Shown here: one piece after another, positions 20,162-55,812 of the stretch | Position numbering within the stretch: the stretch's first letter is position 1 | How the letters are laid out: every line of letters starts with the position of its first letter | Assembly: GCA_011800155.1 (NCBI GenBank) | Contig: CM022376.1 | Coordinates: forward strand, 1,860,001-1,924,000 | Length of the DNA: 64,000 nt | Direction of reading: 5' to 3' | Origin: Flammulina velutipes | Lineage: Eukaryota > Basidiomycota > Agaricomycetes > Agaricales > Physalacriaceae | Notes under the pieces: model-generated | What the model was told of the DNA's origin: nothing | Databases searched by the model: none | What the model saw: only the letters and a program-made list of their open reading frames with translations | Translations under genes and position numbers: made by a program

Positions 20162-20184
20162 CACACCGTGGACAAGGTAGTTTA
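20162..20184 (+). repeat. left terminal inverted repeat of the CACTA-type element
   Basis: It starts CACACCGTGGACAAGGTA and matches the reverse complement of 38143-38165 at 22 of 23 positions. The target duplication CCA precedes it. Confidence 0.88.
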
Positions 20185-20525
20185 GGTATCCTCGAAACTG
20201 TTTTAGATAATAAATATATCGAAATGGTAGGAATCAGATTACAAAACGACTAATTTAAGAATATAATCACATAACATCATCTATTCATTGGATTGTCTGT
20301 AGAAATCTTGCATAAATCCATTGGATAGAAGGTCTAACATAGTAAAGCTGTCTGATACGCAGAAAACTACTTCGAAAACTTTGATTTCTGTCCATATAGA
20401 AAGTTGTGATTTGACGGAGGTACCAAAATACATTGTTGTTACAGATATAAACACGAGAGAAAGTCGGCGAGATAGTCCATATTTCTAAACTTTTCATATA
20501 CATATCTAGATATCATTCTTTACTC
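20185..20525. other. left subterminal region of the CACTA-type element
   Basis: AT-rich, without a gene. Transposase-binding repeats are expected here in this superfamily, but I could not recognise a clear repeated motif beyond two similar CATTGGAT stretches near 20287 and 20319. Confidence 0.35.
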
Positions 20526-21509
20526 CTACTGAGATGAGCGTCCCCCTGCCAGCGTCAGCCGCTTGGAAGCCGGTCTTCCCGAGGGCCTCACACTTGCGCT
20601 TCTTTGGTTCGCATTCGCCCGGGTCTCCCGCGCCTTGGCCCTTTGGACGCCCGCTTTACAATCAAGGATGAGTAGGTCCTTGAGAGGCCAAATATCGGCG
20701 TAGTTCAGCAACTGCGGGTATTTCGTAGTGGCCTACGACCAGTCAGACGTCGAGAGTTGGGTTATAGAGGAAAATACTTACCTTTGCTCTAACAGTGTCG
20801 AGCGCATCTTCGGTCTGCAGCTCGTAGCTGACAGACAGGTCAAGGTGAGACTTAGCGAGCTCTTGAATATAATTCTAGAAAGTCCATCAGTTTGGACTTG
20901 AAAGGTTCGAACGTCTGGGGACACCTACACAGATATCCTCCGTCAGCTCACCGAGCTTCAGCCGCTTCTTGAGCTGATCTCGGCCACTGCTCTTCCCGGG
21001 ATATGCGATCTTGATCGTCGTAACCTCCGAAGGGGAAAGGATGGGTCGAGGAGGAGGGGGGACATTGAGCAGAGAGGCGACGCCAACGTCTTCGGCAATC
21101 GTCGTCGTCGTCGCCGTTGTTGTTCTAGACACATAAGAATCAATTATGTGATCAAGTTAGCAGATGTAGTTTGCTTACCCTTCGTTAGTCGGTTTGGCAT
21201 TCGAAGGCGAGCTAGCAAAACGATTGAGTTAATGATTGACAGCCTCTAGGGTGTGACTTACTCTCCACGACGGTAGGCATTGAAAAAGCGAGTGAACAGC
21301 GTTCGCCGACGATTCTTTGCTTTCTGGTACGGGTGAGGGTGTATATCACCCATGACAGAAAGCCGCGCGTCCTGAAGAGCGAGCGGGGATACGGAAGGCG
21401 TCTCCTGACCAAACCCTGTTTGCGCAAGGGCGAGGACGGTGGGAGGCTTTGGGTACGGGCGACTGGCGTGAGCATCTAGCAAAGGAGTCACCGATGGAAT
21501 CTTGGGCAT
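20526..21509 (-). CDS. transposon gene a: unrecognised protein, about 260 residues
   Basis: The ATG at 21509 (MPKIPSVTPLLDAHASRP) starts a five-exon gene ending in TAG at 20526. The exons join in phase through introns near 21262, 21178, 20930 and 20781. The N-terminal half is proline-rich and probably disordered. A helical central part follows (RDQLKKRLKLGELTEDIC, YIQELAKSHLDLSVSYEL), then DIWPLKDLLILDCKAGVQ. The tail is very basic (RAKARETRANANQRSASV) and could bind nucleic acid or act as a nuclear localisation signal. No family was recognised. It is the leftmost gene of the element and is divergent from gene b. This promoter region lacks the hairpin triplets seen further right. Confidence 0.55.
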
Positions 21510-21971
21510 GATGTGAATGCTTACCGTCGTCTCGCTCCCTTTGCCATATTCATAGAGCCGATGACAATAGAAAGGCTGAAGATAGAAGAACAATAGACCC
21601 AGGTCATGTGCTAAGTACCGCCATAAGATTCGATTCAGCGGATAATTAGATGAAGAGCGTACTTATTGTTCGCTATATGGTATATCCGTAGCGGCTTGTC
21701 AAGCTCTACCAAGGCAACAGATGGTGTAAATGATGTATACTATTGTTTGATGACCTGGCGAAACGGATTGGCTATAGATTCAACTGAGTAGATAATTGTA
21801 AGAGAAATGGAGCATACCTATTGTTCGTCGAGCTATGTCCATAGAAACATACGAGTCTAGCCAGTCACCGGCATCGAACAATTGGAGAACACCATGGGGG
21901 GGGGGCGCCCAATTGTCTTCTAGGCAATGTATAAGTATCGACATCTACAATAGAGCTGAAAGACACCAACG
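21510..21971. other. divergent promoter region between genes a and b
   Basis: It contains a run of ten G residues at 21896-21905. No hairpin triplet of the kind seen at 24-34 kb was found. Confidence 0.4.
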
Positions 21972-23682
21972 ATGGGAAAGTTTTACAGCGCTGTTAACAC
22001 TTACAACAGAAGGACCGTTCTCCGAGGCCACGAAAGCCATGTATTGTGCTTGGCGGTAGCGGAGAGTGGAAAGCTCCTAGCAAGCGGAGGTAGGTGTGCT
22101 TCCTGCTCTCTGATGGTGTACTCACTTCTTTGGAGGGGGAGATACATCAATTGTTTGGAGTTTGGACGAGATGAAGGAACTGCACCGTTTTTCGTCGTTT
22201 AGCGTCCGAGGCGCCACGACCGCGATCACATGGGTTCGAAGAGATGATAGTCCCGACGAGGGTTTCATCTACGGTACGTTAGAGGGCTACATTGGCTTCT
22301 GCAAGTACCAAAGCAAGGTGAGATCCAACTGGTGCATACACTGACGAAGTTACTTACATTCACGAAGAGCGGTGTTGAAGAAACACACGTCATTAGATTG
22401 GCATTTCCGAGTGAAATCACCTCCATCGCCTACGATTCCGCAACTTACAGGCTGGCCGTTGCCAACAGAGAAGGTTCGGTCGCTCTGTTTGCTGTGAGCC
22501 CTTCGACGATGCGCAAGACGGCAGATTTGTGGGCGATTCGCATCGACAATTGTATCCCAAAAGCGATCACCTTCACCTCAGCAAAGGATGTCATGGTTTT
22601 TGGCCTACATGATGCGATGTGAGTCTTCTCCGTTTCGTGCGAGTCTGATTCGCTGACAGTGATTAGTATGATCCTCAATGCAAGTACTGGGCAGTTAAAT
22701 AACGACCAGTCAATGCTTCACGGAATCAAGATGTAAGTAAGGCATGTTCATGGATGACATTCAACACTAACATACCTCATAGTGGGGCCGCAGCTTGTAA
22801 TGCCACGCATAACGTATTCTGCGTGGACACGATCTTGGGCGGAGCTGCGCTGTATAAGATGGACGACGGTACACGCCTCAAAGATCTCGAAATCCCACGG
22901 AAGAAGGAACTGGCAGCGCCTAAACAGGTCGCACTAGCAGAGGATTGTACTGTGATCGTTGGCGGTAGCGACCATGGTATCGTGTATGTCTTCGATAGGA
23001 AGACGGGAGCGATGATACAGAAACTCAGGACGAGGAAGGACACCTGGGTTCAGGCAATTACTGTAAGTTTGGTGTCACTCTTCGGAATTGCAATTCCTAA
23101 CGTACCAAGACCACCTCTATCAACGGTGTACCAGCAATCATAGCGGGTCACGCAATGTCGAATAATGGAAGATGCGATATATTTATCTTCCGAAAGACGT
23201 GGGTGCATCATCTGGTATATGCGTTCATCATCCTCTTTGCCTCCATCCTTGGAGTTCTGGGTGGTAAGTTGGTCTATACAGAATCGAAGGTCAGCGATAA
23301 TTCCCGTAGGATGCCACCTTATAACTTACCTATTTTCCAGGCCATAGGACAATACACCGGGGAAGTGTGGTCGACGTGGAGGATATATATATCTGGAAGC
23401 ACCCAAGATGTCAGTCCCTAATCTCGCGTGCGTAACAGTAGCCTGACCGTTCTGTAGGAAGCCACTGTCGATCCGCGTATGACAGGAACACTAGCCCACG
23501 AGACTTCGGGAAATGCACTGGCTGACATCGATCCCAGTCTCAACGCTGTCGTCACCACTATCACAGCCACGGCTACAACCACCACCGACTCCTGGGTGGT
23601 CCCCAGCGATGCGTCTGCTGAAGCACTAATGGAGGAACTCCCGGTAGACGTATTTCTGACAAACGGTACATTAGTTAGGTAG
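21972..23682 (+). CDS. transposon gene b: WD40-repeat protein with one C-terminal membrane segment
   Basis: The start is ATG at 21972 (acgATGGGAAAG). Exon 1 and the start of exon 2 make one clear WD40 repeat: TVLRGHESHVLCLAV, LLASGGGDTSIVWSL. Weaker propeller blades follow (GATTAITWVRR and GTLEGYIGFC; ITSIAYDSATYRLAVANREG; CTVIVGGSDHGIVYVFDRKTGAMIQKL). The C-terminal part has one hydrophobic segment, HLVYAFIILFASILGVLG, and then a Thr/Ala-rich tail ending in TAG at 23682. Eight exons join in phase, giving about 450 residues. WD40 propellers are protein-binding platforms; here the protein could be membrane-anchored. What it does inside a transposon is unknown; it may be captured cargo. Confidence 0.65.
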
Positions 23683-24393
23683 AATAGTCCAGATCATGGG
23701 GGCCTACCTCTCAATGCAATACTGGAACCTATGCAGCCAGCCGAAGGTCTCTCTGTCAGCGAAATCAGCCCGAGCCACAATGCGCCAGATAGATGTTCCC
23801 AGAGCTTGCAACGGCGTCGCCAATGTATCTCGCAATGTATTAGGTTTTCAGAATTCCCAGACGCCTGGCAGATGCTACGACAGGTTAGTAAAACAGCATT
23901 AGTTCATCGTTTGGCGGCGTAGCTACCTCCGTATCCAAGTCGAAACTACGAGCGTTCACGTCCTGGTGCATTCAGTCGATATGTCGCGAGAGCAAAATGT
24001 GCCAGAGGCCTCAGCGCATCGCGGCGACATGATGACGCATAGTCATCAATGCCATCCTGCACACAAAGTACAGGAGAGCAAGGCGCAATGACGCAGAGTC
24101 ATTGCATCTGCTGGTGATGGATCATGGTGGTCGGTGGTGAACATGAAATTCCCATCACGCCATCCACGCGATCACGACAACCTCGCTTCCTTCCACATCT
24201 CATCACTCAGTCAATAACCCAAGAACTTTGTGTTTTTGGTCCCCTTGTCACTTCAGAACTTTGTGTTCTGAACTTGTAGAATTGACTTTGTGTCAATTCT
24301 TTGATTTTGCTTCTATCATCCCGAACACTTATCGTACGTCGACCGTCTGCTGAGCCCTTAGCCGATGAGTTTACTGACCTATACTAGGTCAAA
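23683..24393. promoter_or_regulatory. upstream region of gene c, with six hairpins
   Basis: After gene b there is no supported exon. The second half holds two triplets of hairpins with opposite orientation. The arrangement looks like the divergent promoters at 28.4-29.0 and 32.9-33.8 kb, although no minus-strand gene is present to the left. Confidence 0.5.
24031..24300. repeat. hairpin cluster 1: two triplets of core-conserved hairpins
   Basis: Stems and loops are: 24031-24047 (GATGAC, loop GCATA), 24056-24074 (CCTG, core ACACAAAGT), 24085-24105 (GCAATGAC, loop GCAGA), 24219-24239 (CCAAGAAC, loop TTTGT, one G-T pair), 24252-24272 (TTCAGAAC, loop TTTGT) and 24278-24300 (AGAATTGAC, loop TTTGT). 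The first three carry the core as ACnCAnAGT, the last three in the opposite orientation. Stems differ in sequence but remain complementary. Confidence 0.85.
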
Positions 24394-26570
24394 ATGTCTT
24401 CCACAAGCAGATTTCTCCGTGTCGATGACCTTACCCGATACGCACCAAAGGAAGGTGAAACCAGTGAGTTGTTTTCGCATTTGCGAGAGCTTTGAGCTCT
24501 TGGAGTCTTTGTCTTCATGGGACTTATTGTCAAATGCTCATCACACATAACAGATATCCTGAGTGCTCACGACGGTTACGTCGGTACAATATTCGAAACA
24601 TCTTTCGTTACTTGCCATCGCCCCGTCAAGTCTATTCCCCCGCCACCCCCAGACGCTAAGGTTCAAGTGTATCGAGACGGATCGTTCGGCCCTCACGATT
24701 TTGTCTGCGCCCCGCAATGGTACCATGAATCCATACCCCAACTAGCAGTCGTCCCATTATGCCCAGCGTCGGATGATACGCAGCATCCGCTTCATGAAGA
24801 CCGCTGCATATGGAGCCTCCTAAAATCTGAGGATATCGACTGGACTCAGGGCGTCATATCGGGAATCGGTAGAGTCAATCGCAAATTTCTCGACCCGCTT
24901 AATCGTTCGGTGACCGCTCTAAAAGTCAAGACTGAGGCCTACCTCAACGACACTCCTGACAATACAAGCCTTCGCAACCTCTTACCCCTCTTATTGCGTC
25001 GTATGCAGCTATACGCTGACCGTCTTTCTTCGTTGACGAAGGACATTCTTTCCCTACGCGTCCTTGTACGTGGTCTCCAGAGGACATGGCTCCTCCTCCT
25101 GGCCACAATACGTTACATGACCATATATCGACCACTCATGAACGGACTGGCTCTCGACAACGAGAACGAGAACGAGCTACGGGTTCGTGTCGTCGGTACC
25201 TACACCTCAGCTCTGCATGTCGTCGAGTTGTTTCTCCCTGCAAAAGTTCCGACGTATTTCATGCGCCCATGGTCTGCGTTTGTCAACGTCAGAATTTTAT
25301 CAACATGCGAGCTGGGCCATCTTGGTCCTTTCATTCTACCGGATAAACCTCTTCCTACCGTCTTCGCCAATGGGGAGAAGTCAGTAGACGCCCTCCATCA
25401 AATGTCTATCTACGTCGCTCGTTTCATAACCTACTCCGACCCATATTCCTTTCGAGATGCCCGCGGCTCAAATTCGCAAGTCATCGCCCCAGCAGCAGCG
25501 CCTTCTTCATCCTCGAAGCCTTCGGCAGGCCCCGTTCGCTTTACTCAACAAAAGGTTCAAGAACGGAGAGACTCCTACCGAGCTGGCCCTTCTCAGCGCT
25601 CCAAAGCAAAACAGAGTGCCCAGACCACTAAGAATCCCAAGACCAGTAAGGCCAAGTTTAGTTCTCGCGCGATGTACACATTTCATAATTTATGTTTCGT
25701 ACAGATCTCTCCCCTGCTCTCTTACAAGATTGTGTTGGCGATGATTATCCCCCCATCTCGAAAAATTGGATAGGGATGAATGCCAAGATCAACATTCAAT
25801 CCACTCGTTTCCTCGATGAACGTCCCACGAAACATCAATACTCTTACCCCCCTTCTAACATGTTCGTTGGTACGGTCAAATCGGCGGATTACTTTGCGCA
25901 ATATCGCTACCTCCGCGATATTTTTATCTATCGAGTGGCATCATCATCTTCCATGCTCCCGAAACAACAATGGCGAGAAATACTTGGTCTTCGGTCAAGT
26001 GAGAAGTCCGCCGACCCAAAATCTCGCGCTAGCGCCTCATTTGACGAGGCGAAGAAGCTCCTCGGTAAATGCTTCGAAATGCAAGGGATGGAGTTCCAAC
26101 AGTCTCTCATTGCGCCACCTGAAATGGGCGAAACGGTGCCACAGGAACGCCGTCTCATACTTTGGGAGGTTTCGCAGATCGGCTTCCGTAGTGATTTGAG
26201 TTATGTCGACCGCCGCCTTTACAAGAACCCACGGAACTCAGTCGCTCATGAGCAGGATGAGGCCCTGGGAGCAGACTTGGAGCATTCAGAGAAACTCTTG
26301 GCCGTTTTCCCTGAGAGGTCTTTGACGGTAGTGGATTCAACTCGCGCCCTCAGTGGCCTACATAATCCAGAGTGGCCACTACGCTCTCTTTACTTGGAAA
26401 AATGGCGAGATGTCATGGCTGAATGGGAGGTCCCGCTACCGGAGCCCCTTAAAGCGGATGCGCCTTTCAAGGATGGCGAACTTTGGGAACGTGCATTGAT
26501 CGAACATTATTTACAACTTGTATACGACGTTTTGGGACGCCCCGCTATCATACCTTTCACCTTATCTTGA
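24394..26570 (+). CDS. transposon gene c: unrecognised protein, about 675 residues
   Basis: Exon 1 starts with ATG at 24394 (MSSTSRFLRVDDLTRYAP). An intron at about 24464-24554 leads to ILSAHDGYVGTIFETSFV. The long second exon has IPPPPPDAKVQVYRDGSFGP, helical repeats (LRNLLPLLLRRMQLYADRL, LSLRVLVRGLQRTWLLLLA) and a basic, Ser/Lys-rich linker near residue 390. An intron with donor GTAAGG near 25650 joins it in phase to the last exon (LSPALLQDCVGDDYPPISK). That part ends with LGRPAIIPFTLS before TGA at 26570. The helical domain and the linker between two ordered halves suggest a protein that binds other macromolecules, but I recognised no family and propose no function. Its end converges on gene d across a fold-back. 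Confidence 0.65.
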
Positions 26571-26699
26571 ACGTTGTCATTAGATATCCGTCGCTGTAAA
26601 ATTACTTGATCTAATCGATTTGTTTGGGAATTTTTTTAAATTTGGTTGTCTCGAAAGTGAATTGTAAGTCCAAGTTCTCGCAAGTGTATGGCATGTGTA

Positions 26700-26770
26700 G
26701 CACGCACAAAGGTCCACCTCGCCATCGGCGAGGAGCTGGCCAAAGGCCTGCGTTGGCCTTTGCTGCGTGC
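26700..26770. repeat. three-armed fold-back between convergent genes c and d (copy 1)
   Basis: An outer stem GCACGCA-CAAAGG (26700-26712) pairs with CCTTTG-c-TGCGTGC (26757-26770). Inside are two hairpins: CCTCGCC/GGCGAGG with loop ATC (26717-26733) and GGCCAA/TTGGCC (26738-26758). An inverted, diverged copy lies at 31380-31448. It may act as a 3'-end processing or insulating structure, which is inference. Confidence 0.75.
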
Positions 26771-26842
26771 GGATAAGCAATTATTCATTCATTCAAAAGC
26801 ATGTACACGGTCTATGTCTGGAAATACAGGTAATTACAGTGA

Positions 26843-28383
26843 CTAGAAACTACATAAACCATCTTGGAGGTGTGCTTTATGCGCCGCATAAGAACGACAC
26901 CGACCACATCCATCACAGTTAATTTCCATCGTAGATATCACTGCCCATACATCCCTAGGAACACCGATTCGCGAGTTCCACTCAATCAAGGCTGCACGGC
27001 TCGGCGCGAATACATCAGCCCAATCGGGTGCTCCCTCTGGAACGGTAGGAGTGCGCTGCAGAGTGGTTCGTCGCTGATTGATGTCGGGAATCACTAGATG
27101 AAGCCATTCAGTACGATGATGAGTTCGTCACAGGGAAGATACTGACCTTTGCGGCGCTGATACCAGTTGTGGCAATATCCACCGGGGACGATATGATCGA
27201 AATAACCCGCGTTTGAGAAAGCACACGAGCAGATCGAACAGACGACGCAATCGTCCCGAATAGTGTGCCATGTTTCAGAGGGTATACCACACGTCGAATG
27301 GAGCTCTCTAATGGCATGACCGATGTCGGTTCCAATGAACTGGGTAAAATGGTTCGCATTTCGATGAGCAGTCTGATCCAAAGATAAATCCCATGGACGT
27401 AAGACTTCTGCCGTAGGAATGGTATGTGTTGGATGGACGACTACACCTGAATTTGACAGTCTGAGAACGAGCTCATTGTTACAAGCGAAAGTTTTACCTG
27501 ACGAGAAATCACCCTTGCAGTACGACGATTCCATTCGGGAGCAAAACTCGGTGTCTGAAAAGATAATCAACGAAATATATGGGGCCAATAGTAAAAGTAA
27601 CTAACCATAGAGGGCACGCGAGTTAGCCTTTTCGCGGTTGAAGTAAACATGGAAGGGAGGAAGAGGGGCTTGGGCTTCGGGCGTGTGAGGATAGTGAGAG
27701 TGCTCCCAAGCGAACTCGTCACTCAGAGGATCATTCATGGTAGGGACTAGCACTACAAGCGGATTAATTTACGCGTACAAAGGCTCGAAAAGCCGCTTAC
27801 CACGAAGCGAGCATTTATGGAGGCCATTTCGGGCCTCGAAGTAGTCGATGCCATCTGGAGTACGAAATAATGACATCGTACATTCCTCCAAGCAGCGGTA
27901 AGGATTTAGGGAGTGCGGACAGATAAGCGTGGGCAGAGCAGAACCAAACTGGAATCCGTGCAGAGAGGTCATTGTTCCGTCGTCCCGCAGGATGAAAGGC
28001 CTACGATGGCGGTAAGAAATGGAAGGTATATGATAAAATTTGACCTACCTATTAACCTCCTCCCACTGAACAGTGCGAGGGTTGAAACTGACAATGAGGC
28101 CACTGTCATACACAGTGGCTAATTGCCGGGCGCAAGATGCCATGAAGTCCTCCGATGGTTCATTAGCTGCAAAGAGCTTCTCGAAGAACCTTGTAGATTT
28201 TCGAGCACGGCGAGCTTCCTCACAAGGATGAATCAAGTTGCTCTTGGGGCGAGGGCTACGAGTGGGACGGATAGGTGTGGGACTTCGAAGTTTCGCGGAT
28301 TTCCTGGTCGATTTCTTGCTGGTCGCTTTCTTGCCGGGTGCTTTCTTGGAAGCGTATTTCTTCGATTGTTTGTAGGGTAGCAT
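26843..28383 (-). CDS. transposon gene d: basic protein with two Cys/His modules, about 430 residues
   Basis: ATG at 28383 opens a very Lys/Ser-rich start (KKYASKKAPGKKATSKKS), like a histone tail. Six exons join in phase through introns near 28045, 27808, 27603, 27489 and 27148. Residues around 145-175 contain CPHSLNPYRCLEEC. Near the end two related modules occur. The first is GIPSETWHTIRDDC followed by Cys at +3 and +6 and a final His-x6-Cys. The second is GVPRDVWAVISTMEINC followed by Cys at +3 and +6 and a final His-x5-Cys. These look like metal-binding repeats I cannot assign to a known family. The basic tail suggests DNA binding. It ends in a stop at 26843, convergent with gene c, and shares a hairpin-rich divergent promoter with gene e. 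Confidence 0.65.
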
Positions 28384-28981
28384 GATAATGAAAAGACGGG
28401 CATAATGGAAGACTTAAATACAGATGCTATTATTGTTTCACTACTATGTATGCTAAGAAAAACTCACAATTGGGTATCCAAACGCGTACACAATAAAGCG
28501 GAAAGTGATGGGCCCGAAGTTCGCGCTTTGAAGACAATAATCAGCTTGGACACAGAGTCCAAGCAAAAGCCTAGCCAATGACACAAAGTCATTCGCTTTT
28601 CAGCAATACCAGAGCAATGACCCAAAGTCATTGCCTAGCACTCGTGGTGGTGGTGGTAGAAGCAGAAGTCAATCCCCGGCTGATGACAAATCAGCGGTTG
28701 GCTTATTACTATCATCTGAAGACTATGCGTCTTCAGATGATAGCCCGCAGACTTTGCGTCTTCGGTGGCGATTCACTGGTGTCTGTTTCGACTTTGCGTC
28801 GAGTCAGTCTCCTTGATCGTTGTAACGCCAACTGAATGGGTGGCTATCGTTTTTCGGTATGTGAACAATAGCCTAATTGTCTTGAAACTGACAATAAGAT
28901 AGATTTCCATCGCGCGGTAGTGTTCCGCCTTACATCTCTTATATACGCTGTCTGACGCTCCAGTCCTCCAACACCCAACCC
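28384..28981. promoter_or_regulatory. divergent promoter region of genes d and e with hairpin triplets
   Basis: About 600 bp between two divergent starts. It contains cluster 2 of core-conserved hairpins, one triplet oriented to each gene, and a short GGT run near 28645-28657. Confidence 0.6.
28544..28802. repeat. hairpin cluster 2: two triplets plus one variant
   Basis: Facing gene d: 28544-28564 (GCTTGGAC, loop ACAGA), 28577-28593 (AATGAC, loop ACAAA; outer arms AAAAGC/GCTTTT) and 28614-28634 (GCAATGAC, loop CCAAA). A variant at 28679-28695 has stem GCTGAT and loop GACAA. Facing gene e: 28711-28741 (13-bp stem ATCATCTGAAGAC, loop TATGC), 28745-28765 (AGAC plus CCG/CGG, loop TTTGC) and 28788-28802 (TCGAC, loop TTTGC). 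The core orientation flips between the two halves. Confidence 0.85.
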
Positions 28982-31341
28982 ATGTCTGACAATCCATCCG
29001 ATGTAAGGTTCGTTTTACTTCTCCATCGCTTTTTTCTCAAATATTCTACAGCCCCCCAATAAGCGACCCCACCTGGGCGATGGTCCGTCACCGTCACCTG
29101 CTCCGACTCCGAAAAAGAAGACGGCGGCCCCAGAAAGGCGTAAACTTATAAACGACCTGAAGGCCAAACTAGATCAGGCTTATACGCGCGAAAAAGAGCT
29201 AAGGCGGGATCTATCTCAACGAGATGTGGACGTGCGAAAGCTTTCCGAGGACATACGGAACCGGGATCACGAAATTATGCAATTAAATCTACGAGTTGCT
29301 GAGGCGAGCTTCGATGGCGAGGATGTCGAGATGAGCAGATTGGAAGAGCTCGAAGATCTTGAGGAGAAATATGAGGTCTTGCAAGAGGCTTTGCAGTCAT
29401 CGGTTCGTGTTTTCTTAGAGCACTAATCCTCCTTGCTGACATTCTTTAGAATCGTCAAATTGAAGCTATTACTCTCGAGAAAGCCGAACTCTCTAAATCG
29501 ACAATGATTTTGCAACAAGACCTCTTATCGGCCACGAAAAAGCACGCTAATGACTTGGCCGAAGCTACCATGAAAACTGAAGCGTTACTGGTTCGTGTTC
29601 TACCCGTTATGCCGCCCTGACGCTCATCGATCATAGACTGCCCAAAGAGAATCATTTGAAGCTCAAATTGAATCGAACGCTAGAGAACATCACAAAATCC
29701 TGGTATGTCTCCATAATCATGCGGTCTACGAAACATAATTAAATTCATTCAGGAGCAAAGAAATATTCAGATTGTCAAATTGCAGTCACAACTGGAACAG
29801 GTTAAGTACCGTCTTTTCGCGATGACAAGTAAGCTCATTCTCTCCCAGGCGTTCAGGACACCACGAAACCCATCTCCGTCTCCAGAGCCATATAACACAC
29901 GTCGACGGCCTGCTCGTGGACGTGCGCGCGGACGCAAATTCGATGCATCTAAACTGGCAGCTCCCCTTCCAGCACTTCCAGTTCGTCTTGATGTGCCAAT
30001 GGATGGCAGTACCGCTGCAGGAACTTCCATGCCGTCGCCAATGGCCAATGGAGCCTCAACCGCAGGAGCCTCTGTGCAATCATCAATGGCCGATGGCGCA
30101 GGTCCTCAATCAGGTCCTCGCGCTCCTCGAGTAGGAGAACCTCAACCTCCGGAAACCTATGTTCACCTTGGCGTTGACGCTTCACGCGGTCCTGAGGAAC
30201 GACTACTCATTCGTAGTCACTATTCCTGGACTAGAGTTATCGCAGAGGAAAGGGCAACTTGGGCCAAATACCTTGATCAACTCGCGGTGTATTATAGATG
30301 TGCTCGTTCCGACTATGCAAATGAATATCACGTAAGTTCCTTTCCCGCTTTTCATTAGCCATGCACTAAGGTGTTGGCTACTGTACTAGGCCATGAACCG
30401 CGACCTGTGGAGAGAGGTATACGGAGTACCTGGCTACAGTGACTTCAGCGGTTACACTCCCGTGGGTGACGCTGAAGCTGAAGCATTTTCGAATGGGAGT
30501 GGTGCAGGACCCGACGAAAAGTGCCATCTGTACTTCGGCAACCAGTTTACTAGTCATATCTGGAACCGACGAGTCATCGAACGACTTACTAGTCGCTTCA
30601 AGGAATTGGCCGCACAGGAGCAATCTTGGCTACCTCCCGTTTCTGATGGCTACCTCGCCGGACTGCTCCATAGCTCACTTGTACAATGTCAAAAGCACTG
30701 GAGTCAATGGCAGCCAAGGCGGGACGACAAGAAGGACAGGGTAGAGACACCAGACGAAGCTTTAGCTCGGGCGACCTCTGAACGAGAACAGAGCCTCCGA
30801 CAGGCAAGCCTGACTACTATTCGTACAGCAGTAAGTCTCTTCATTACGTGTCGGAATGCCTAAGAACAAATCAATCTAGAAATTACAACGTCGACAGTAT
30901 TGGGTCAACGTAATTTTGTCGATGAAGGAAGCCGAACAACCCGCCCCTCCAGATCTTGGTGTTTGGAGACAGTGGGCTACGGGACTCTCCAAGTGTCGTC
31001 CGGATGTCATGACCGATGAGGAATTCACCATCGAAACCAAGAGCGACGGCACGAAGCATAACGTGTACCTGATTGGACAGCCCCCTTGGAGAGACACGAC
31101 TCTTTCGCTAGCGCTCAGGACTATCGACAGGGAGGCGAAGGCAGCTGCTTTAAAGGGAGTTCCGACGACGATAGCGACAGAGCGTCGGTATACTAACGAG
31201 ATTAGCACGCAGCGCGCACCCGAGGGACTCTATAGGCCATTCTACGACTCTGCTTGGTTGACAGAACATGTGAAGACAACGGACATGTACGTAGAAGAAC
31301 CCGATTTCGAATGGCACGCAGTCACTATAACGGATCTGTAA
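28982..31341 (+). CDS. transposon gene e: coiled-coil protein, about 685 residues
   Basis: The start ATG is at 28982 (MSDNPSD), with an intron directly after. The next exons form a long coiled coil: DLKAKLDQAYTREKELRRDL, QRDVDVRKLSEDIRNRDHEI, EDLEEKYEVLQEALQ and SKSTMILQQDLLSATKKH. A basic linker RRRPARGRARGRKF and a low-complexity stretch of Ala/Ser/Gly/Met follow. The C-terminal half is ordered, with HYSWTRVIAEERATWAKYL, CHLYFGNQFTSHIWNRRVIERL, LQRRQYWVNVILSMK and a final ISTQRAPEGLYRPFYDSAWL. The basic RG-rich segment may bind DNA or RNA. Introns near 29003, 29401, 29591, 29703, 30331 and 30831 keep the frame. The family was not recognised. It ends in TAA at 31341, next to fold-back copy 2. 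Confidence 0.65.
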
Positions 31342-31379
31342 TATACAGTATAATATATGTCTAATATGTACACTTATCC

Positions 31380-31448
31380 GCACGCAGCAAAGGCCAACGC
31401 TGGCCTATGGCCACCTTCTCGCCGATGGCGAGATGGACCTTTGTGCGC
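31380..31448. repeat. three-armed fold-back between convergent genes e and f (copy 2, inverted)
   Basis: This is a diverged inverted copy of 26700-26770. Its hairpins are TCTCGCC/GGCGAGA with loop GAT (31417-31433), TGGCC/GGCCA (31401-31413) and an outer CGCA-g-CAAAGG paired with CCTTTG-TGCG. The base pair at the foot of the first hairpin changed from C-G in copy 1 to T-A here, so pairing is kept. Confidence 0.75.
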
Positions 31449-31564
31449 TCGTCCCAAATTTACAACTTAAGTCAATCCTAGTACGAGCCAATACACGTAT
31501 CCTATAGTGTACATACAAGATATTATAATACATTTTGCTTTGCGTTCAAGAAGACTGTGCGGTT

Positions 31565-32889
31565 TTACTCTATTGCTTCGCCCGTCTCAATTTTGCTCAC
31601 ATCATCTCCTCTGCATTCAGTCAACTCCACACTCCCGTCGAAGTTGAACGCGTCTGAGGAAGGGACGAAGTAAACCTCGCAGTCCGAATCTTCATGCCTC
31701 CGCTTGCGACGATTGAGAATCCCGTACATGCCAATGACACGACCTACCAAAGCTTAGTATAGTCAGATATGGGTCAATTATACTTACTAGGAACAATGAA
31801 CACTTGGATGACCCTCCCAATCCCGATATTGGACGAAGCTGTCTAGAGGGTGGATCAATAGAGATATTCGGAGTTGGAGTTGGAGTCAAAGCAGTAGCGC
31901 ACCATTGTGATAACACTGCACGATAGGCATACGGTAAGGGCGCGTGTAGCAGTAATCAGGTATTTCTATCAATATCGTCAAATTTTTGCAGAGACACAGA
32001 GCAACACCGATGATTACCTGCTTCCTGAGGTAATGCTGCACTGCTTCCATGGAGGCCTCTTCGAACTGAGAGATGATAGTGTATCCGATCATTCCGCACA
32101 TGAAGTCCGTGGCCATAGAAGCTGAGTGGGTAGCGACGATGAAGGATTTGACTACAAACTGATTGTCGAGTAATATTCCCGCCGTGGCAATGATACTGAA
32201 AACGAGGTTTGCCAAGATGGTAGTACCGCTAATCCAAATTTGGATCCGGAGAAGACGTTGAAGTGGGTAGGGGACGGTCCTTGAAAAGGTCAAGAATGAG
32301 AGAACGAAATAGCCATCTGTAGTGGCCGTGGCGCAGCCCATGAGAGCCACAGCAACGGCAGATAGACGGGTGGCAATTTTTTTGTCCAATTCCCCTATCA
32401 GAAATGCATCGACGATCCCAAAATGCGCGAGAAGGAATATGCCGGCTACAGAAGACTGGAAGTAGTCAGCAGCTGATGAATACTAAAATCTGGAAGAACA
32501 AACAGCAATGAAGACTCTTTTCCCATTCCGCCCGCCAGGGGTGGCCAGTCCTACATATTGCGCGATTGCGACTGTATAATCATGATTGACGAACGTTAGG
32601 TAGAATGCATAACGTACATCCTATCATCCTGCGATGGATTAGATTTTATGAAAAAGAGACGAGGGGGTACATACATTCCTGAGAGAACCACAATTTGGGT
32701 AACAAACATCCTATTCGTTGGGTTAGAATTGAGGCAAGGAGGTAAAACGGCGTGCGAGGACTCACAGTCTTCTCAAGCCGACTGAAGACCCAAAGTCTTC
32801 GGCAAGACCACAAAGGTCTTGCGAATTGAGAATTAGATTAAAAAAACGCACCTATTCTTGAAGTTTTCCAGTGTAGATTCAGTGGACAT
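31565..32889 (-). CDS. transposon gene f: multi-pass membrane protein
   Basis: ATG at 32889 (MSTESTLENFKN) starts a 38-nt first exon; its intron (about 32851-32710) holds three hairpins. Small exons give MFVTQIVVLSG and AIAQYVGLATPGG. The main exon has several hydrophobic helices: VAGIFLLAHFGIVDAFLIG, LSAVAVALMGCATATTDGY, WISGTTILANLVFSIIATAG and THSASMATDFMCGMIGYTII. The C-terminal part is hydrophilic (MYGILNRRKRRHEDSDCE) and ends at 31565. The splice near 31970 has two possible readings, so the last helix is uncertain. The topology resembles fungal receptor-like membrane families, but it lacks the DUF6534 marks. A membrane protein is unexpected cargo in a DNA transposon. Confidence 0.6.
32756..32822. 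repeat. hairpin cluster 3: one triplet inside intron 1 of gene f
   Basis: Members are 32756-32772 (GAGGAC with GTCTTC, loop TCACA, one G-T pair), 32782-32802 (CTGAAGAC with GTCTTCGG, loop CCAAA) and 32802-32822 (GCAAGACC with GGTCTTGC, loop ACAAA). All three read the core in the sense of gene f (minus strand). Confidence 0.8.
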
Positions 32890-33156
32890 GGTAGTTAGAA
32901 CGGAAATGGCGGCAAGCTGAGTAAGCTGAGATATAAACTTCCAAGTCGCCGTTATTCCAGATAGCACAACGCGTCAGTATCGTAGAGGCGAGCAGACATA
33001 CCGATAGCGCACTTAGGAGAACAGAGATCGTAATTCATCCGGTAGATCATGATGTAGATGAGACTGAGGGCGACAGATGATCGAGGGCGACGGATCCAGG
33101 CGTCGGGTTATGTCAGCAATTCTCTTTAAGGTTGCCCAGCGCCCACCACTACGCTC

Positions 33157-33237
33157 GCTCAGGACTTTGTGTCCTTGAGCATCTTAGTGGAGCAGAACTA
33201 TGTGTTCTGCTTTGCGAGTTGACTCTGTGTCAAATCG
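33157..33237. repeat. hairpin cluster 4: triplet upstream of the transposase gene
   Basis: Members are 33157-33180 (GCTCAGGAC with GTCC-t-TGAGC, loop TTTGT), 33191-33211 (AGCAGAAC, loop TATGT) and 33215-33237 (CGA-TTGAC with one mismatch, loop TCTGT). All read the core in transposase sense. A likely 5'-UTR intron follows, with a gtatat donor near 33281 and a ttttag acceptor near 33340. Confidence 0.85.
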
Positions 33238-33469
33238 TCTAGACCTTGGCGACCTATGTCTGATGGATCTAGTTTTACCATGGTATATCTGTCTATTGTT
33301 CTCTTCTCGTTAACAAGGGCTCACGAACATATCGTTTTAGACACAAGGCGCTCTCGCAATGCGCTACTGGGCATCAGGCGAACATCAACTTGACCCTTGT
33401 GGAGTCTTCACGGAGAACCTGGCAATGCGCCTCGAGATTCACAGTGGCTAGTGTCAATACAACTATCTG

Positions 33470-33549
33470 CTCGAGAACTTTGCGTTCATGAGCGTCCCAG
33501 TGGTGAAAAACTTCGTGTTTTTCCCTTTGGTTTGACTTTGCGTCAAATC
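33470..33549. repeat. hairpin cluster 5: second triplet upstream of the transposase gene
   Basis: Members are 33470-33492 (CTC..GAAC, loop TTTGC), 33505-33523 (GAAAAAC, loop TTCGT) and 33529-33549 (GGTTTGAC with GTCAAATC, one G-T pair, loop TTTGC). Together with the similar bases that follow, this looks like a tandem copy of cluster 4. Confidence 0.85.
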
Positions 33550-33796
33550 GTTGGACTATCCATATGTTGCTCGGCATAGGTACGTCTATTATTCTCTCTT
33601 CGTTACAAGGCAAACTTACTAAGCTATCACCTAGACGAAGAGGGGCACTTCGCATGGATCTGGTTGTTCCATATGTGGTAGACCTTGTAGTATTGTAAGT
33701 TGCATGGTGACTTTGTACTCGATTTGGTCGTCCTTACTTATATGTAGACACATTCTAAATTCCAACCTTCCATACTCTCGTGCTGCCGTCCATACC

Positions 33797-36700
33797 ATGA
33801 GTCGTTCTCGCGTCAAGAATTGTCTCTGTACGCTCTATCCTCCCCATCAGGCGACATCTATCCAGCAGTCGGAACATTTACGCATTCAGGCTTTGGTGAG
33901 TTTCCCAATATGGAGGTCATAATCATCCCTCACTCCTCTGCAGCGTCAGTTAACAACTGGACATGTTTCCCCAGTGGTTGAAGGTGTTGCACCAGTTAGT
34001 CTGGCTCAAGAAGGGACTTCCAGAGCCGGCGCTGAACATATTGAGAGCGCCAATCTAGCAGATAGATTCGCGTCTTCGCGCATGACAGAGGATTCTCGAT
34101 CAGACGACGAAATATTTAACCAACTGGCGGACATGGTAGCGGCTACGACAATCAGCGATGGTCCCCCCGCACATGAAGCCCCAAACAGACTCTGGACTTC
34201 GAGGAATGCCTATCAAACCAACATTTCTTCCACCATCCCTTCCAGCGTAGCAGGAGTTTCGCTCAGTGATCTAGAACATGGCGTGCGTTCAGTGTTTCAG
34301 TCTGGCCTATTTGGACAGGCGACGCCGGCAACCTTTCGTGGTGGCTCTCGAAGCGTCAATCGCGCGGCTGGTCGAATCCATCTCACGAAGTCCCAACGTG
34401 CCCATACCGTCATACAGAACGTTTCAGACAAGGCAGAGGCACTGGCCAAAGAACTCAGGTCATTACATCCAGTCAACCCCAACGACAAACACGCCCTAGA
34501 ACAACGATACAATTTCCTGGACGCTACCAGTGATACCGCCCGTAGTCTAAGTCAGAGTCTCTCCGCTGTCCGGCGACGAAAAAAGGACGACTACGTTGCG
34601 GAACTTGCCACAGCCAGGGGTAACTTGCAAGAGCTGGACGGTATCATCAGCCTGCTTGGTACGACCTTGCCTTCTCGGACAACGGCAGAACCTCCTGTGA
34701 TCGAAACAAGTATGTGATGTCGGCGCTAGCTCTCGATTTCTCAAACTAATGTGTTGCAGGCCGTTTTTTTCAAGATCCTCTCCAGGGGAAGACTGCCGTC
34801 GCCCAGCTCATCATATTCCTGGGTTTGGCGTGTAATCTCGTCCTCGGTCTCTCGTACGCAGCTTGCGACTTCATCATCAGTATTGCTGGCCTCATCGCTG
34901 GAGCTTCTCTCGAGGTCGGTCGGTCGGGTCAACCGAAAACCCCCTTCCATGAGCATGTCCTAGAACAGCTCCCCTCCACCTTATACTCCTCCCTCAACGC
35001 TCTCAACCTGGACGGAAAACTCACTATATATGCAGTATGTCCATCATGTAGCTACTGCCATCGCCCCGAGTTCTCTAGTGGTGTTTCGGTCACTGCCAAG
35101 TATCCCAAAACGTGTGGGCGTATGATCATTGACAAGGAAAACCCCCAAGCTCGTCGGCGTCCGTGCGGTCACGAACTGACCTCGCTACGGCATGGAACTT
35201 TGCGCCCCAAAAAGGCATATCCCGTCGCCTCACTAGAGGATCATCTTGCCCGTGTTCTCGCCGATGAAGAGCTCGAGCGGCTTTGTGACAAGGCCTGCGA
35301 CGATGCTTTCGCCAGCGTAAATCATGCTGCTGGACACACTTCTGCATGTCAACCTAACCTGCAGAATGCATTCGACGGAGACTTCCTACGGACATTCCAG
35401 GCCCCCCCTTCTTCACCGTCCACACGCAAACTCTTTATCGATAGAGGAGACCGTGCTCGACTGGCTCTCGCGATGCAAGTCGACTTTTTCAACCCCAACG
35501 GCCTTACCCTTCGAGGAGCAAGCGACTCTCTTGGCATCGTCTCCATTGCCATCCTCAACCTTCCCGCCGACATGCGCTATAAGCCGGAAAACATATTCAT
35601 GGCCTCTATCATCCCAGGACCGAAGGAACCTGACTACGACGAGTTGCCATGCTACTTGGAACCCATAATCGATGTGTGTGTGGTCGGTTGGAATACTGGG
35701 ATTCGACTTTCACGGACGGCGTCTTCCCCCACAGGCCGTATCATGGATTTCGCTGTTGTCATCTCTGTCAACGACCTCCCAGCCGCCCGAAAGGTCGGAG
35801 GCGCTGCGGGCCCTCTTTCGTCGTGGTGCACTGTTTGCGATCAATTTGCCCAGAGTTACAACGTTACCTTTCCATGGAACTTGCGGGACGTGAATACTCT
35901 CCGGAAAGCAGCTGAGGACTACTTAGGAGCCGACACTGCTGCCAGCCAACAAGCAATCTTCGATGCTCACGGTATACGCTGGTCGGAGTTTTGGAGGTTA
36001 CCCTATTGGAATCCCACCCGCATGCTTGTTATCGACAGCATGCACTGTGTTTTGGAAGGATTGGTCCATTACCATTGCCGTCACGTTCTTGAGATCGACA
36101 GAAAGGCTGCTGAGAAGAAGTTCAAACCATCCGCCGCTTTCGTCCATCCCTGGAAAGCGTACGTGCATGCGAATGTTCCCCCAAACGCCCAAATCAATCT
36201 AGCGAAGGACAACCTCACAAAGTGCTTAAAAGCCATCGAAACTATCCAAGACCTCCTGCAACACCCCTTTGAATCCGGCGAACATTCCTTATCCCGCGAC
36301 GTACTTAAAGGTCGTCTCCTCAAGCAGCCCAAAGCTGCTCTTCGATTCGTGGCCTGGTCACTTGGAATTCACGAGTTGACGCGAACACTTGTCTTCACTT
36401 TGGCGAGCGATGAAACTGAACGTAGGATTCTTAACACGCCTCTCAAGAATAAGGAACAATACACGGAAGCCTTGATGAGATGGGTAAGTACCTAGACTCG
36501 TTGTAGCGGGCACTACTGATTGTCATGTTTAGCGCGATAAACAACCTCACCCTTCTTTGACTCCATCTCGAAACGTAACATCGGATGTTATCGACCACAT
36601 CCAGGCCGTAATCAGGGATTGTACTGTCCCCACATGGATCAACACCGTACCCAAGCGCTTCGGCGAAGCAGTCGAAGGGACCATCAAGGCAGACGAATGG

Positions 36701-37680
36701 CGTACTCTGTCGACCGTCTACCTTCCTATCGCATTCATCACCCTTTTCGGGTCTCAAAACTCTTCGCCTCGTGAACGTGAGGTCCTATCACATACCATGG
36801 CGCTGTTCCAAGCTGTCAACATCCTATGTCGTTACAGCGTGAGCGTGGAGCGAATGGAAGCATACCACCACTTGTTAAAGACGTGGGTTGATGGATTACA
36901 CCGGGTTCATCCGCATACCCAAACACAAAAGCGCAGACCAAATGTGCATGCGGCTTTCCACATCTATGATTTTTTAAAGCTTTTTGGTCCAGTGACTTCC
37001 TGGTGGACATTCCCCTTCGAGCGTCTTATCGGGACAGTTCAGAAGATCAACACAAATACTCTTATCGGAGGTGAGTTTCTTATGACCTTCGTATACAGTA
37101 AGTAGTCTAATTCACTTTTATAGGCGAAGCCGAAACCACCATCGTCAGGTCGTTCACTCGAGGATCGAACCTACGCAAGCTCTTGAGGCATCAGAATTGC
37201 CCACCAATAATCCGGGAGTTTAAGCGACTCTTGGACAAGGCCCTGTCGCGTCAGTATTCGGAGGATGACAATAACGACTTCGCACCAGGCACGCAATCGG
37301 GAGAGACAGCTCGCTACGCCTACGACGGCTATCTTTACACTCGCCAAAGTACGCATCTTGGCAACAGCCTTGTGCGTTACTCGATTCCCGGATCATTGAC
37401 AAGAACCTACACGGGGAGCATACAGAGGATCGCAGCTTCGTCGGATGGCTCAAAAGTCCAGTTCCATATCTCACGATATCGTCCTCTTCCTGCTGGCGAG
37501 TATGACTCATTTTCTGTCTTTCCGTGGTTTCCGGCCACCAGCTATTCTTTGGAGACGGTTTCCGATCTCGACGTTATATCCCCGCTCAACATAGTCTGTC
37601 ATATTGCACAGCTCGAGTATGATGGACGTATGGTTACTGTAGACCTTGGTCGAGTGAGAATCCATTGTTTCTCACCTTGA
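33797..37680 (+). CDS. CACTA-type transposase (tnp2-like), about 1,230 residues
   Basis: ATG at 33797 (MSRSRVKNCLCTLYP) begins the first of five exons; introns near 33896, 34709, 36485 and 37069 keep the frame. After a disordered N-terminus comes one hydrophobic stretch (TAVAQLIIFLGLACNLVLGL). A zinc-ribbon-like CPSCSYCHR and the tnp2 core follow: DFFNPNGLTLRGASDSLGIV, ILNLPADMRYKPENIF, CTVCDQ and MLVIDSMHCVLEGL, where the Asp and His of the conserved DxxH pattern are visible. Downstream are YSVSVERMEAYHHLL, WWTFPFERLIGTVQKINTN and ETTIVRSFTRGSNLRKLL, typical of basidiomycete tnp2-like proteins. The TGA is at 37678-37680. It should recognise the CACACCGTGG ends and move the element. No stop or frameshift was seen. 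Confidence 0.88.
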
Positions 37681-38165
37681 TATGCTTTCTCATTTTTTTC
37701 CCTTTCAACAGCAGTGATCACATGGACTTGAGGTTGGCGCTCATCAGCAGCTCGTCGCCTTTACGGCGGACGCTGGCCGTGAGACTGATATCTAGACGCG
37801 AGAAAATACATATTTATGAGTTTCGGCGATATGGAACTAGGAACATGAAATATGTGGACTCATTTCTATCTCCTAGCTAATCAATGTTCACCGTTTGTTA
37901 TCTGTGTCCTGTATATACGTATCCTTTCTATTGAAGGCGTATATTGCTTTTCTCAGATGCTATCTCATCAGATTTGCGTATACATTTACAAAGGCATATG
38001 TCATTCAGGTTGTTTATTTATTTACTTAGCACATCGCTACCGGAATATGTACATAAAGAATTATTGTAAAATATAATCGTAAATGTAGATATCTTTCGTC
38101 TTATCAGCTAAGAGAGTTTTGTCAAAGAGTTTACACCAAGGGTAAATTACCTTGTCCACGGTGTG
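37681..38165. repeat. right end of the CACTA-type element with inverted repeat (38143-38165)
   Basis: AT-rich non-coding end. The last 23 bases are the inverted partner of the left end, and the duplicated CCA follows at 38166-38168. No clear subterminal repeat was recognised by eye. Confidence 0.7.
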
Positions 38166-54755: not shown

Positions 54756-55812
54756 ATGGCAGATTCCTCCCCTCCTTCTAGCGGCTCTACGCTTTGCAAC
54801 ACTGACCTCCTCAGTGCCGGTAATTACTCTGGCCGTCCTGTTGACGCGTCGAATGTCGATGCGCAGAATGGATCCACCTTTCCCATCCCGACTTTTTATT
54901 CCGCTCCCAGAACAACCAAGCACACGCTCATGGGTATACGAGCCGCTGAAGGACATTCTCAAAGGGGTGAGCAATTTATCTAGTCTGGTTTCCATCGTCG
55001 ACTGAATTGCGCCACGCAGCGAATGACCCATTCGACTACGAACAGAAGTATCCAGAAGACGAGGAGTACCAAGAGATGGGCCCCATGGCTAGGATCTGGA
55101 AGGTTTTCTTAGATGAATGTGGTAAATTCGACTCTGAGATGGTTGAGAACTGGAGAGACGCGCTGGATGTGCTGCTTGTTTTCGTGAGTTTTACAGCACT
55201 GTTTGGGCATTTTCTCAATGAGCGTGTATAGGCTGGACTGTTCTCTGCCGTCGTCACCACCTTCGTCTCCCAAACGTGCCAAAACCTCCAACCCGACTTC
55301 CAGGAGATCAATGCGTCCAAGATGAACGAGGTCTCCGAACTCATCCGTGCCGCCATCCTAAACGGCACCGAAGGCATTTTGAGCATTCCGCGCTCCGCCA
55401 ACACGGCCACCTCCTTCAGACCCAGCCTATCCGCGCTTTGGGTCAATGGCCTTTGGTTCACAAGCCTCGCACTAAGTCTGACGACAGCGCTTATTGCTGT
55501 TTTGACGAAGCAGTGGTTACACCAGTCCATGTTCGTCCCCTCTGGCACGCCCCGCGACCGTAGTCGCATCCGCCAGTTCAGGTACATGAGCCTGCAACAA
55601 TGGCAGGTTCCCGTCATCATCGGTCTCCTCCCCGTCCTCATGCATGTCTCCCTCGGCGACTTCTTTGCCGGACTCACGATCTTCCTATGTTCACTTAATA
55701 CGACGATAGCTGGTGTTATTGGTTCTATCGCCGCCGCCGCTTTTGGTGTCTACATCATCACGAATCTCCTTCCACTTTTTAAACCTGGCTGCCCGTACAA
55801 GACCCCATTGAC
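54415..55812 (+). repeat. direct repeat, copy 1 (upstream region and first third of DUF6535 gene)
   Basis: Nearly identical to 58541-59938 with a constant offset of 4126 bp. Identity is high up to the codons for KPGCPYKTPLT and then drops sharply. Confidence 0.85.

Follow-up and report, generated by a model that had tools for sequence, protein, structure and literature searches.

Co-oriented triplets of loop-constant, stem-covarying hairpins in a CACTA/EnSpm-type transposon of the mushroom Flammulina velutipes

In the early promoters of bacteriophage N4, a DNA hairpin with conserved loop bases and a conserved closing pair is read by the virion RNA polymerase; variable stem bases are described as immaterial if the hairpin is kept, and small hairpins as extruding at physiological supercoiling (PMC4496689). 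Transposons can also carry repeated motifs recognized by their own proteins, as in the VANC/VANDAL system of Arabidopsis (PMC10398659), and in plant CACTA elements repeated motifs are read by TNPA/TNP1 (PMC2613891). In Agaricales, EnSpm elements that carry an accessory gene have been described (Kojima 2025; PMC12730594). Here, we describe a CACTA/EnSpm-type transposon with about seven genes, found in a 64,000-nt stretch of Flammulina velutipes DNA (the window: assembly GCA_011800155.1, contig CM022376.1, positions 1,860,001 to 1,924,000, part of contig C9 of the 38.1-Mb genome searched). Mostly near the predicted gene starts of this element, small hairpins are repeated in threes. Their two arms change together and their loop stays constant, which suggests control by folded shape rather than by fixed sequence. 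Covariation of this strength is usually taken as functional RNA structure; here, it is found in promoter-proximal and intronic transposon DNA, for which the literature searched describes neither a structured RNA nor a DNA element read by its structure.

The genome contains at least five copies of the element, four of them distinct (the window copy, C5, C7a and C12; the fifth is C7b), and all comparisons below were made within this one genome. The four distinct copies contain 87 hairpins in 29 triplets, the three hairpins having the same orientation in 29/29. Seven triplets are carried by each of the window copy, C5 and C12, and eight by C7a; the c-type triplet is doubled in C7a and C12, and only remnants of triplet u persist in C12. 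An earlier reading of the window from its letters alone (the sequence-only reading) had announced seven triplets, and their 21 hairpins were all located. The hairpin sites of the window are as follows.

24029..24105, minus strand: triplet c, antisense to and downstream of gene c (cores at 24091, 24061, 24035)
24219..24300, plus strand: triplet d, upstream of gene d (cores at 24225, 24258, 24285)
24486..24500, plus strand: one hairpin with the loop motif, left over from an additional array that is decaying in gene d, intron 1
28544..28634, minus strand: triplet e, upstream of gene e (cores at 28620, 28581, 28550)
28709..28805, plus strand: triplet f, upstream of gene f (cores at 28722, 28751, 28791)
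32754..32822, minus strand: triplet g, inside predicted intron 1 of gene g (32851-32711) (cores at 32808, 32788, 32760)
33156..33236, plus strand: triplet t, the more distal of the two preceding the transposase gene (cores at 33164, 33197, 33222)
33470..33549, plus strand: triplet u, second upstream of the transposase gene, decayed in C12 (cores at 33477, 33510, 33535)

The same reading had counted a 22nd, variant hairpin. The palindrome at 28679-28695, which lacks the loop motif, was presumably meant; an additional hairpin at 24486-24500 does carry the motif. The palindrome stands between the divergent e and f triplets, and near the equivalent position of C5 and C7a there are palindromes whose loops differ. 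As for the extra array in intron 1 of d, C12 has three divergent hairpins, at spacings of 30 and 27 nt, C7a two, and the window and C5 one each.

Sites were located with the core ACTNTGNGT, allowing at most two mismatches, so that the constancy of the loop is partly due to construction. The core is perfect in 80/87 hairpins; the other seven (g1 and u2 of the window; d2, g1 and u2 of C5; f2 and u2 of C7a) were admitted because their stems pair, and some perfect cores beside the triplets that lack good stems, such as those at C5 12333, C7a 9731 and C7a 12382, were left out. The resulting consensus is CTNTGNG with a stem of about 8 bp, that is, a 5-nt loop T-N-T-G-N (first T in 87/87, second T in 85/87, G in 87/87) closed by a C-G pair in 87/87. 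The second pair is A-T, except for compensated C-G (g1 of the window and C5) and G-C (f2 of C7a) pairs and for two A.C mismatches. Thus, of the constant core and covarying stem claimed previously, the covariation holds and the constant part shrinks to this consensus, even the second pair having been swapped. Over the 87 hairpins, positions 1-5 are Watson-Crick paired in 90-100%; the figure drops to 69-78% for positions 6-8, to 44% for position 9 and to 32-39% farther out, the 15-bp stem of hairpin f1 being exceptionally long. Hairpins within a triplet are spaced 20-41 nt apart (mean 28.8), stems abutting at 20-21 nt; helical phasing of this spacing was considered and rejected (Rayleigh p about 0.15 at 10.5 bp). 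A covariance model run on the window only, hence against its own source sites, gave 20 matches with E <0.01, each of them a triplet hairpin, and placed g2, the only one left of the 21, at E 0.18.

Pairing was compared with that of shuffled sequences for the 82 distinct hairpin sequences; these shuffles ignore relatedness, and same-triplet sites of different copies are not independent. Paired cells reach 86.6% vs 59.0 +/- 1.3 in shuffles, cells with two-sided changes 233 vs 88.3 +/- 7.6, and the covariation score 0.684 vs 0.185 +/- 0.015, none of 500 shuffles being as high in any of the three. Five measures were compared in all; in one of them, a count of the pairs changed on both sides, the difference is small (8 vs 7.1, reached by 42/500 shuffles). 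When the partner is slid by 1-3 columns, pairing falls to 31-44%. In addition, the window contains 18 occurrences of the motif ACTHTGYGT, 16 of which fall in the element, vs 3.0 expected. Loop-motif sites of the triplets have 4-8 of 8 positions paired, with 7 or 8 paired in 64/87. Elsewhere in the same stretches, at least six pairs are formed at 11/441 loop-motif sites, and 6 of those 11 lie in intron 1 of d. Chance palindromes are rejected by the motif excess, the shuffles and the poor stems of these non-triplet sites.

Comparison of element copies leads in the same direction. Between copies, 23/34 stem positions changed on both sides go from one Watson-Crick pair to another, vs 4/29, 4/32, 5/37 and 0/18 in register-slid controls. 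Between distant copies, change is about 0.19 per site in stems vs 0.58-0.67 in flanks, and in intergenic alignments the hairpins are the main, though not the sole, blocks kept in all copies. The closest distinct copies, the window and C5, differ by 15 one-sided and 2 two-sided stem changes, neither of the latter being Watson-Crick to Watson-Crick. Because the changes between these two copies are mostly one-sided, with mismatched intermediates, compensation looks stepwise, which favors selection over concerted repair. An example is pair 3 of hairpin c2, which has T-A in C5, C-G in C12 and, in the window, the mismatch T.G. It could be argued that hairpin-templated repair or arm-to-arm conversion keeps the arms complementary around a core conserved for its sequence, and a similar upkeep has been proposed for long inverted repeats in nematodes (PMC1803023). 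Besides the stepwise changes, such a mutational process is made improbable by arms that mostly stop at about 8 bp without spreading (f1 excepted), by the conservation of the loop and of the number three, and by the 441 same-loop sites elsewhere in the stretches, which mostly have no such stems.

Another possibility is that a homodimer reads the inverted repeat RAC-N5-GTY in duplex DNA. Indeed, pair 2 is A-T in 77/82 sequences, the 5' side of pair 3 is G or A in 76/80 paired sequences, and pair 5 combines A with T, in either order, in 76/82. Duplex reading gives no reason, however, for complementary covariation at positions 4 and 6-8; moreover, the most conserved part is the asymmetric loop, and the second pair has been swapped with compensation. 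We therefore give this explanation as little credence as the mutational one.

At the genome scale, GACTTTGYGTC is found 77 times, 30 of them in the five copies, and the reversed pattern 24 times. For 23 of the 47 sites outside the copies, flanking sequence was fetched: 37/115 outer positions pair, vs 27/35 in seven C5 sites, and at least three of the next four positions are paired (the fixed G-C counted) in 6/23. In 23 background loci, 9/264 loop-motif sites have six pairs and none has more. Four scans used patterns chosen from stems seen in the element, each fixing five stem pairs and leaving the loop degenerate; they gave 55/65 matches inside the five copies (11/17, 12/15, 19/20 and 13/13); the ten outside matches are single and scattered, and the reversed controls gave 5 matches in all. 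At 15 distant Tnp2 loci, some of them overlapping and taken with 1.5-kb flanks, 212 loop-motif sites pair at chance, the exceptions being one site with 7/8 pairs and two with 6/8, single and outside any triplet. A motif spread through the whole genome is thus rejected, by the concentration of stem patterns in the copies and by poor pairing outside them. The sequence-only reading had taken the hairpins as a sign of selection for structure and had proposed to examine shuffled stems, compensatory changes and motif density in the genome; all three bear it out. Selection for structure is therefore supported at the sequence level by covariation between sites and between copies and by the concentration in the element.

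The positions of the triplets can be compared with those of the predicted genes, which are listed below with two sequence blocks near the transposase gene.

20529..21662, minus strand: gene b, function not assigned
22114..23679, plus strand: gene c, weak beta-propeller similarity below the Pfam cut-off; 5' region without a hairpin triplet
24394..26570, plus strand: gene d, three predicted coding exons, function not assigned
26846..28383, minus strand: gene e, cysteine-containing protein, family not assigned
28982..31341, plus strand: gene f, by inspection a coiled-coil-like first half, a basic RPARGRARGRK stretch and a conserved second half
31568..32889, minus strand: gene g, hydrophobic, probably a multi-pass membrane protein judging from its translation
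33296..33319, plus strand: CT-rich block ending in ACAAGGG, downstream of triplet t, a possible transcription start zone
33589..33610, plus strand: equivalent CT-rich block downstream of triplet u
33797..37677, plus strand: Tnp2 (Transposase_21) transposase gene, several exons

Relative to the start codons, the window triplets lie at -175 to -94 (d), -251 to -161 (e), -273 to -177 (f), -641 to -561 (t) and -327 to -248 (u). Triplet g is found at +67 to +135 in the window; according to predicted splice sites, it falls in intron 1 in all four copies. The previously claimed promoter location is therefore kept for d, e, f, t and u and given up for g. The core was also said to read in the sense of the gene; this is the case for 6/7 window triplets, each in the sense of the adjacent gene, and fails for triplet c. 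Since gene c is on the plus strand, this triplet is directed to the gene's 3' end. Placing c on the minus strand was rejected; a minus-strand intron downstream of triplet c, plausible by eye, was rejected as well, as it coincides with sequence resembling the 3' end of c. In gene g, predicted intron 1 (32851-32711, minus strand) appears to open with GT in half of the four copies and with GC in the other half; the first exon measures 38, 35, 23 and 29 nt in the four copies, always in phase 2, followed by GTGCGT or GCGCGT.

In fungi, a CT stretch followed by CAAG can mark a transcription start. A CT-rich block of ACAAGG-like type is present 35-59 nt past the third stem in 7/7 t and u modules of the four copies, with a pattern fitted after the alignment had been seen. 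One study speaks of pyrimidine-rich stretches in fungal promoters and is no more specific (PMC3036848). A TATA box before f and the transposase gene is not kept in all copies and was not relied on. Upstream of e, a 14-nt block followed by GTGAG (28466-28485, minus strand) is kept in the four copies; it may be where a non-coding first exon ends.

What, then, might the hairpins do? We tentatively favor, at somewhat less than even confidence, the view that the triplets are cis-regulatory sites recognized by their shape, most likely acting as DNA hairpins. In each triplet, three adjacent palindromes would form, within a single strand, hairpins with a stem of about 8 bp and the loop C-TNTGN-G. The triplets flank the predicted start regions of d, e, f, g and, twice, the transposase gene, in promoter-proximal DNA and first introns, and negative supercoiling near an active promoter could extrude the hairpins. 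A loop-reading protein, probably encoded by the element, may then bind the three hairpins together, whereby the element genes would become jointly active or escape host silencing. The wider picture, a eukaryotic DNA transposon with a private regulon in which each controlled gene is marked by three co-oriented, loop-read hairpins extruded from promoter DNA, is possible yet more doubtful. Were the loop indeed what is read, stems could drift and homology among the element's own promoters fall while control is retained.

The DNA form is only slightly more likely than RNA as the acting form. Protein-bound RNA hairpins often combine a constant loop with a generic stem. Sense-strand RNA stem-loops in 5' leaders or first introns, through which a loop-specific RNA-binding protein would control splicing, export, stability or translation, constitute a real possibility, which we place somewhat below the DNA hairpins. 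Several observations speak for RNA and weigh against the favored reading. Co-orientation in all 29 triplets and the sense orientation of 6/7 in the window are simpler under RNA. Folded as sense RNA, each of the seven window triplets is more stable than its shuffles (z -2.9 to -6.0), and in 5/7 the sense strand surpasses the antisense in stability. The g triplet and the extra d array lie in introns. Compared with permuted triplets, upstream ATGs are scarce after triplet d (1 vs 5.0; 406 nt, four copies), e (1 vs 2.8; window only) and f (7 vs 10.6; three copies), a scarcity compatible with leaders there. Downstream of t and u, GTRNGT/AG-like pairs surround the CT-rich blocks and could be introns, in which case transcription would start before the triplets or near them. 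In addition, the spacing has no helical phase, the DNA reading assumes that 8-bp hairpins with 5-nt loops can extrude in chromatin, triplet c has no gene that it obviously serves, and no element protein could be assigned as the binder, both predicted structures being too poor.

Other observations count for DNA. Mismatches comprise 23 G-U vs 13 A-C and 43 others, and flank composition predicts 0.150 to 0.101 (about 1.5:1); hence G-U is not above A-C beyond composition. When each strand is compared with its own shuffles, the antisense z is the more extreme in 5/7 window triplets. Between triplet u and the transposase gene, upstream ATGs are not depleted, with 5, 7 and 3 in 246, 249 and 227 nt of three copies (15/722), vs 9.0 expected from permuted triplets, and ATGs occur inside hairpins of all triplets except d. 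Downstream of both t and u there are possible start zones, triplet c runs antisense to gene c, and triplet positions span about -640 to +135 of the start codon. A known structured RNA family is rejected, Rfam giving no match up to E 1 in 20162-38165. Leader RNA, which the sequence-only reading had offered as an alternative, is thus disfavored at the transposase triplets by the ATGs and the CT-rich blocks and misfits g, whose triplet is in a predicted intron; RNA as such is retained. If the hairpins act as DNA, this would be eukaryotic gene control by extruded DNA; if as RNA, a new loop-specific family of regulatory stem-loops common to most genes of one element. In either case, a shape-read site would let a selfish element retain trans-control despite sequence drift.

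If the hairpins are bound by an element protein, gene f would be a first candidate for a nucleic-acid binder, from inspection of its basic RPARGRARGRK stretch. Residues 300-670 of its product have no homologue among 6631 candidates. The scanned pieces of d, e and f match no Pfam family above cut-off, though they are conserved between copies. Gene e has one homologue, in Tricholoma furcatifolium (36% identity over 39%), and gene d two, covering 53-57% of d. The predicted structures of P0001 (mean pLDDT 32.7) and d (37.6) are too poor to use. Between copies, substitutions in genes c to f and the transposase gene fall mainly at third codon positions, a bias that is less clear in b and g; it indicates that element genes have been under purifying selection.

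The element itself has the following limits.

20162..38165, plus strand: whole CACTA/EnSpm-type element, 18,004 bp, its boundaries being the ends of a near-identical second copy, with 3-bp flanking duplications
20162..20184, plus strand: left terminal inverted repeat, 23 bp, one mismatch with the right end
38143..38165, minus strand: right terminal inverted repeat

That this is a CACTA-type element, as had been proposed, is confirmed by its Tnp2 transposase (Transposase_21/Tnp2, PF02992, E 6.5e-12, above the Pfam cut-off), its CAC..GTG ends and its 3-bp duplications. The ends, set by comparison of the window copy with C7b, read 5'-CACACCGTGGACAAGGTA...TACCTTGTCCACGGTGTG-3'. The terminal inverted repeats start with CAC, CACACCGTGGACAAGGTA being present at both ends, and the plant pentamer CACTA is not present there. 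Read at three copies, the target site duplications are CCA (window), AAG (C7b) and TCA (C5). C7b is an inverted copy of 20162-38165 on C7, at about 2,528.9-2,547.0 kb; being 99.9% identical and having its own target duplication, it points to recent transposition. C5, C7a (on C7) and C12 are about 66-87% identical to the window in the main aligned blocks. Within the gene c region (22051-23823), C7a is 80% identical to the window, vs 67-74% in its other blocks longer than 100 bp; from these sequences, recombination between element copies is suggested. A genome search with the transposase gave 20 matches, 5 spanning the whole query and the remainder distant; no relatives of it were found in viral_contigs and genome_contigs.

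Blocks [d] and [e/f] have been inverted independently among the copies (24217-31447), one [d] breakpoint falling between triplets c and d. The triplets might therefore be recombination or replication sites used as single strands, their proximity to promoters being incidental. We consider this the least probable explanation, as the e/f breakpoints coincide with long inverted repeats (26703-26777 and 31373-31447), not with triplets, and the ends of the window element have neither triplet nor hairpin motif. These two repeats are an inverted pair (93%) of a strong hairpin between convergent genes (RNA fold -44.9 kcal/mol, z -4.55). An 82% relative occurs at four sites on contig C13, three of them spaced 8,708 bp, which hints at a possible tandem repeat such as rDNA; Rfam gave no match in 1.1 kb around one of these relatives. 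Outside the element, the window contains two open reading frames, 55322-57691 (789 aa) and 59448-61805 (785 aa), both DUF6535.

VANDAL elements belong to another transposase superfamily. The VANC/VANDAL system resembles the present one in its transposon-specific arrays of short motifs in non-coding regions, which are read by an element-encoded protein; there, a sequence motif forms tandem repeats, whereas here constancy is confined to the loop and the inner pairs, the flanking stem sequence varying in complementary fashion, and the main text of that paper does not contain the word "hairpin" (PMC10398659). Plant CACTA elements share the transposase superfamily and have repeated motifs, but these are subterminal and read by sequence, whereas the hairpins are internal, close to gene starts and conserved in structure (PMC2613891). 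Fungal EnSpm/Plavaka elements share CAC..GTG ends and 3-bp duplications; no TET/JBP domain is found in the 22 open reading frame pieces scanned here, and the paper on them has no occurrence of "hairpin" (PMC12730594). Among the open-licence PMC papers listed by the searches, no report was found of hairpin arrays in a transposon with constant loops and covarying stems. The nearest working analogue, by comparison only, is the N4 early promoter. As in N4, the mushroom hairpins have a conserved loop and closing pair and a paired stem that is free to vary. N4 is a bacterial virus with a 3-base loop, read by a phage polymerase at the start site; in the fungal transposon, the loop has five bases, the hairpins come in threes and are also found in introns, and the same 22 pieces, with exons scanned separately, contain no polymerase family. 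The transposon belongs to a superfamily already known; it is for its hairpin sites that the searches gave no described counterpart.

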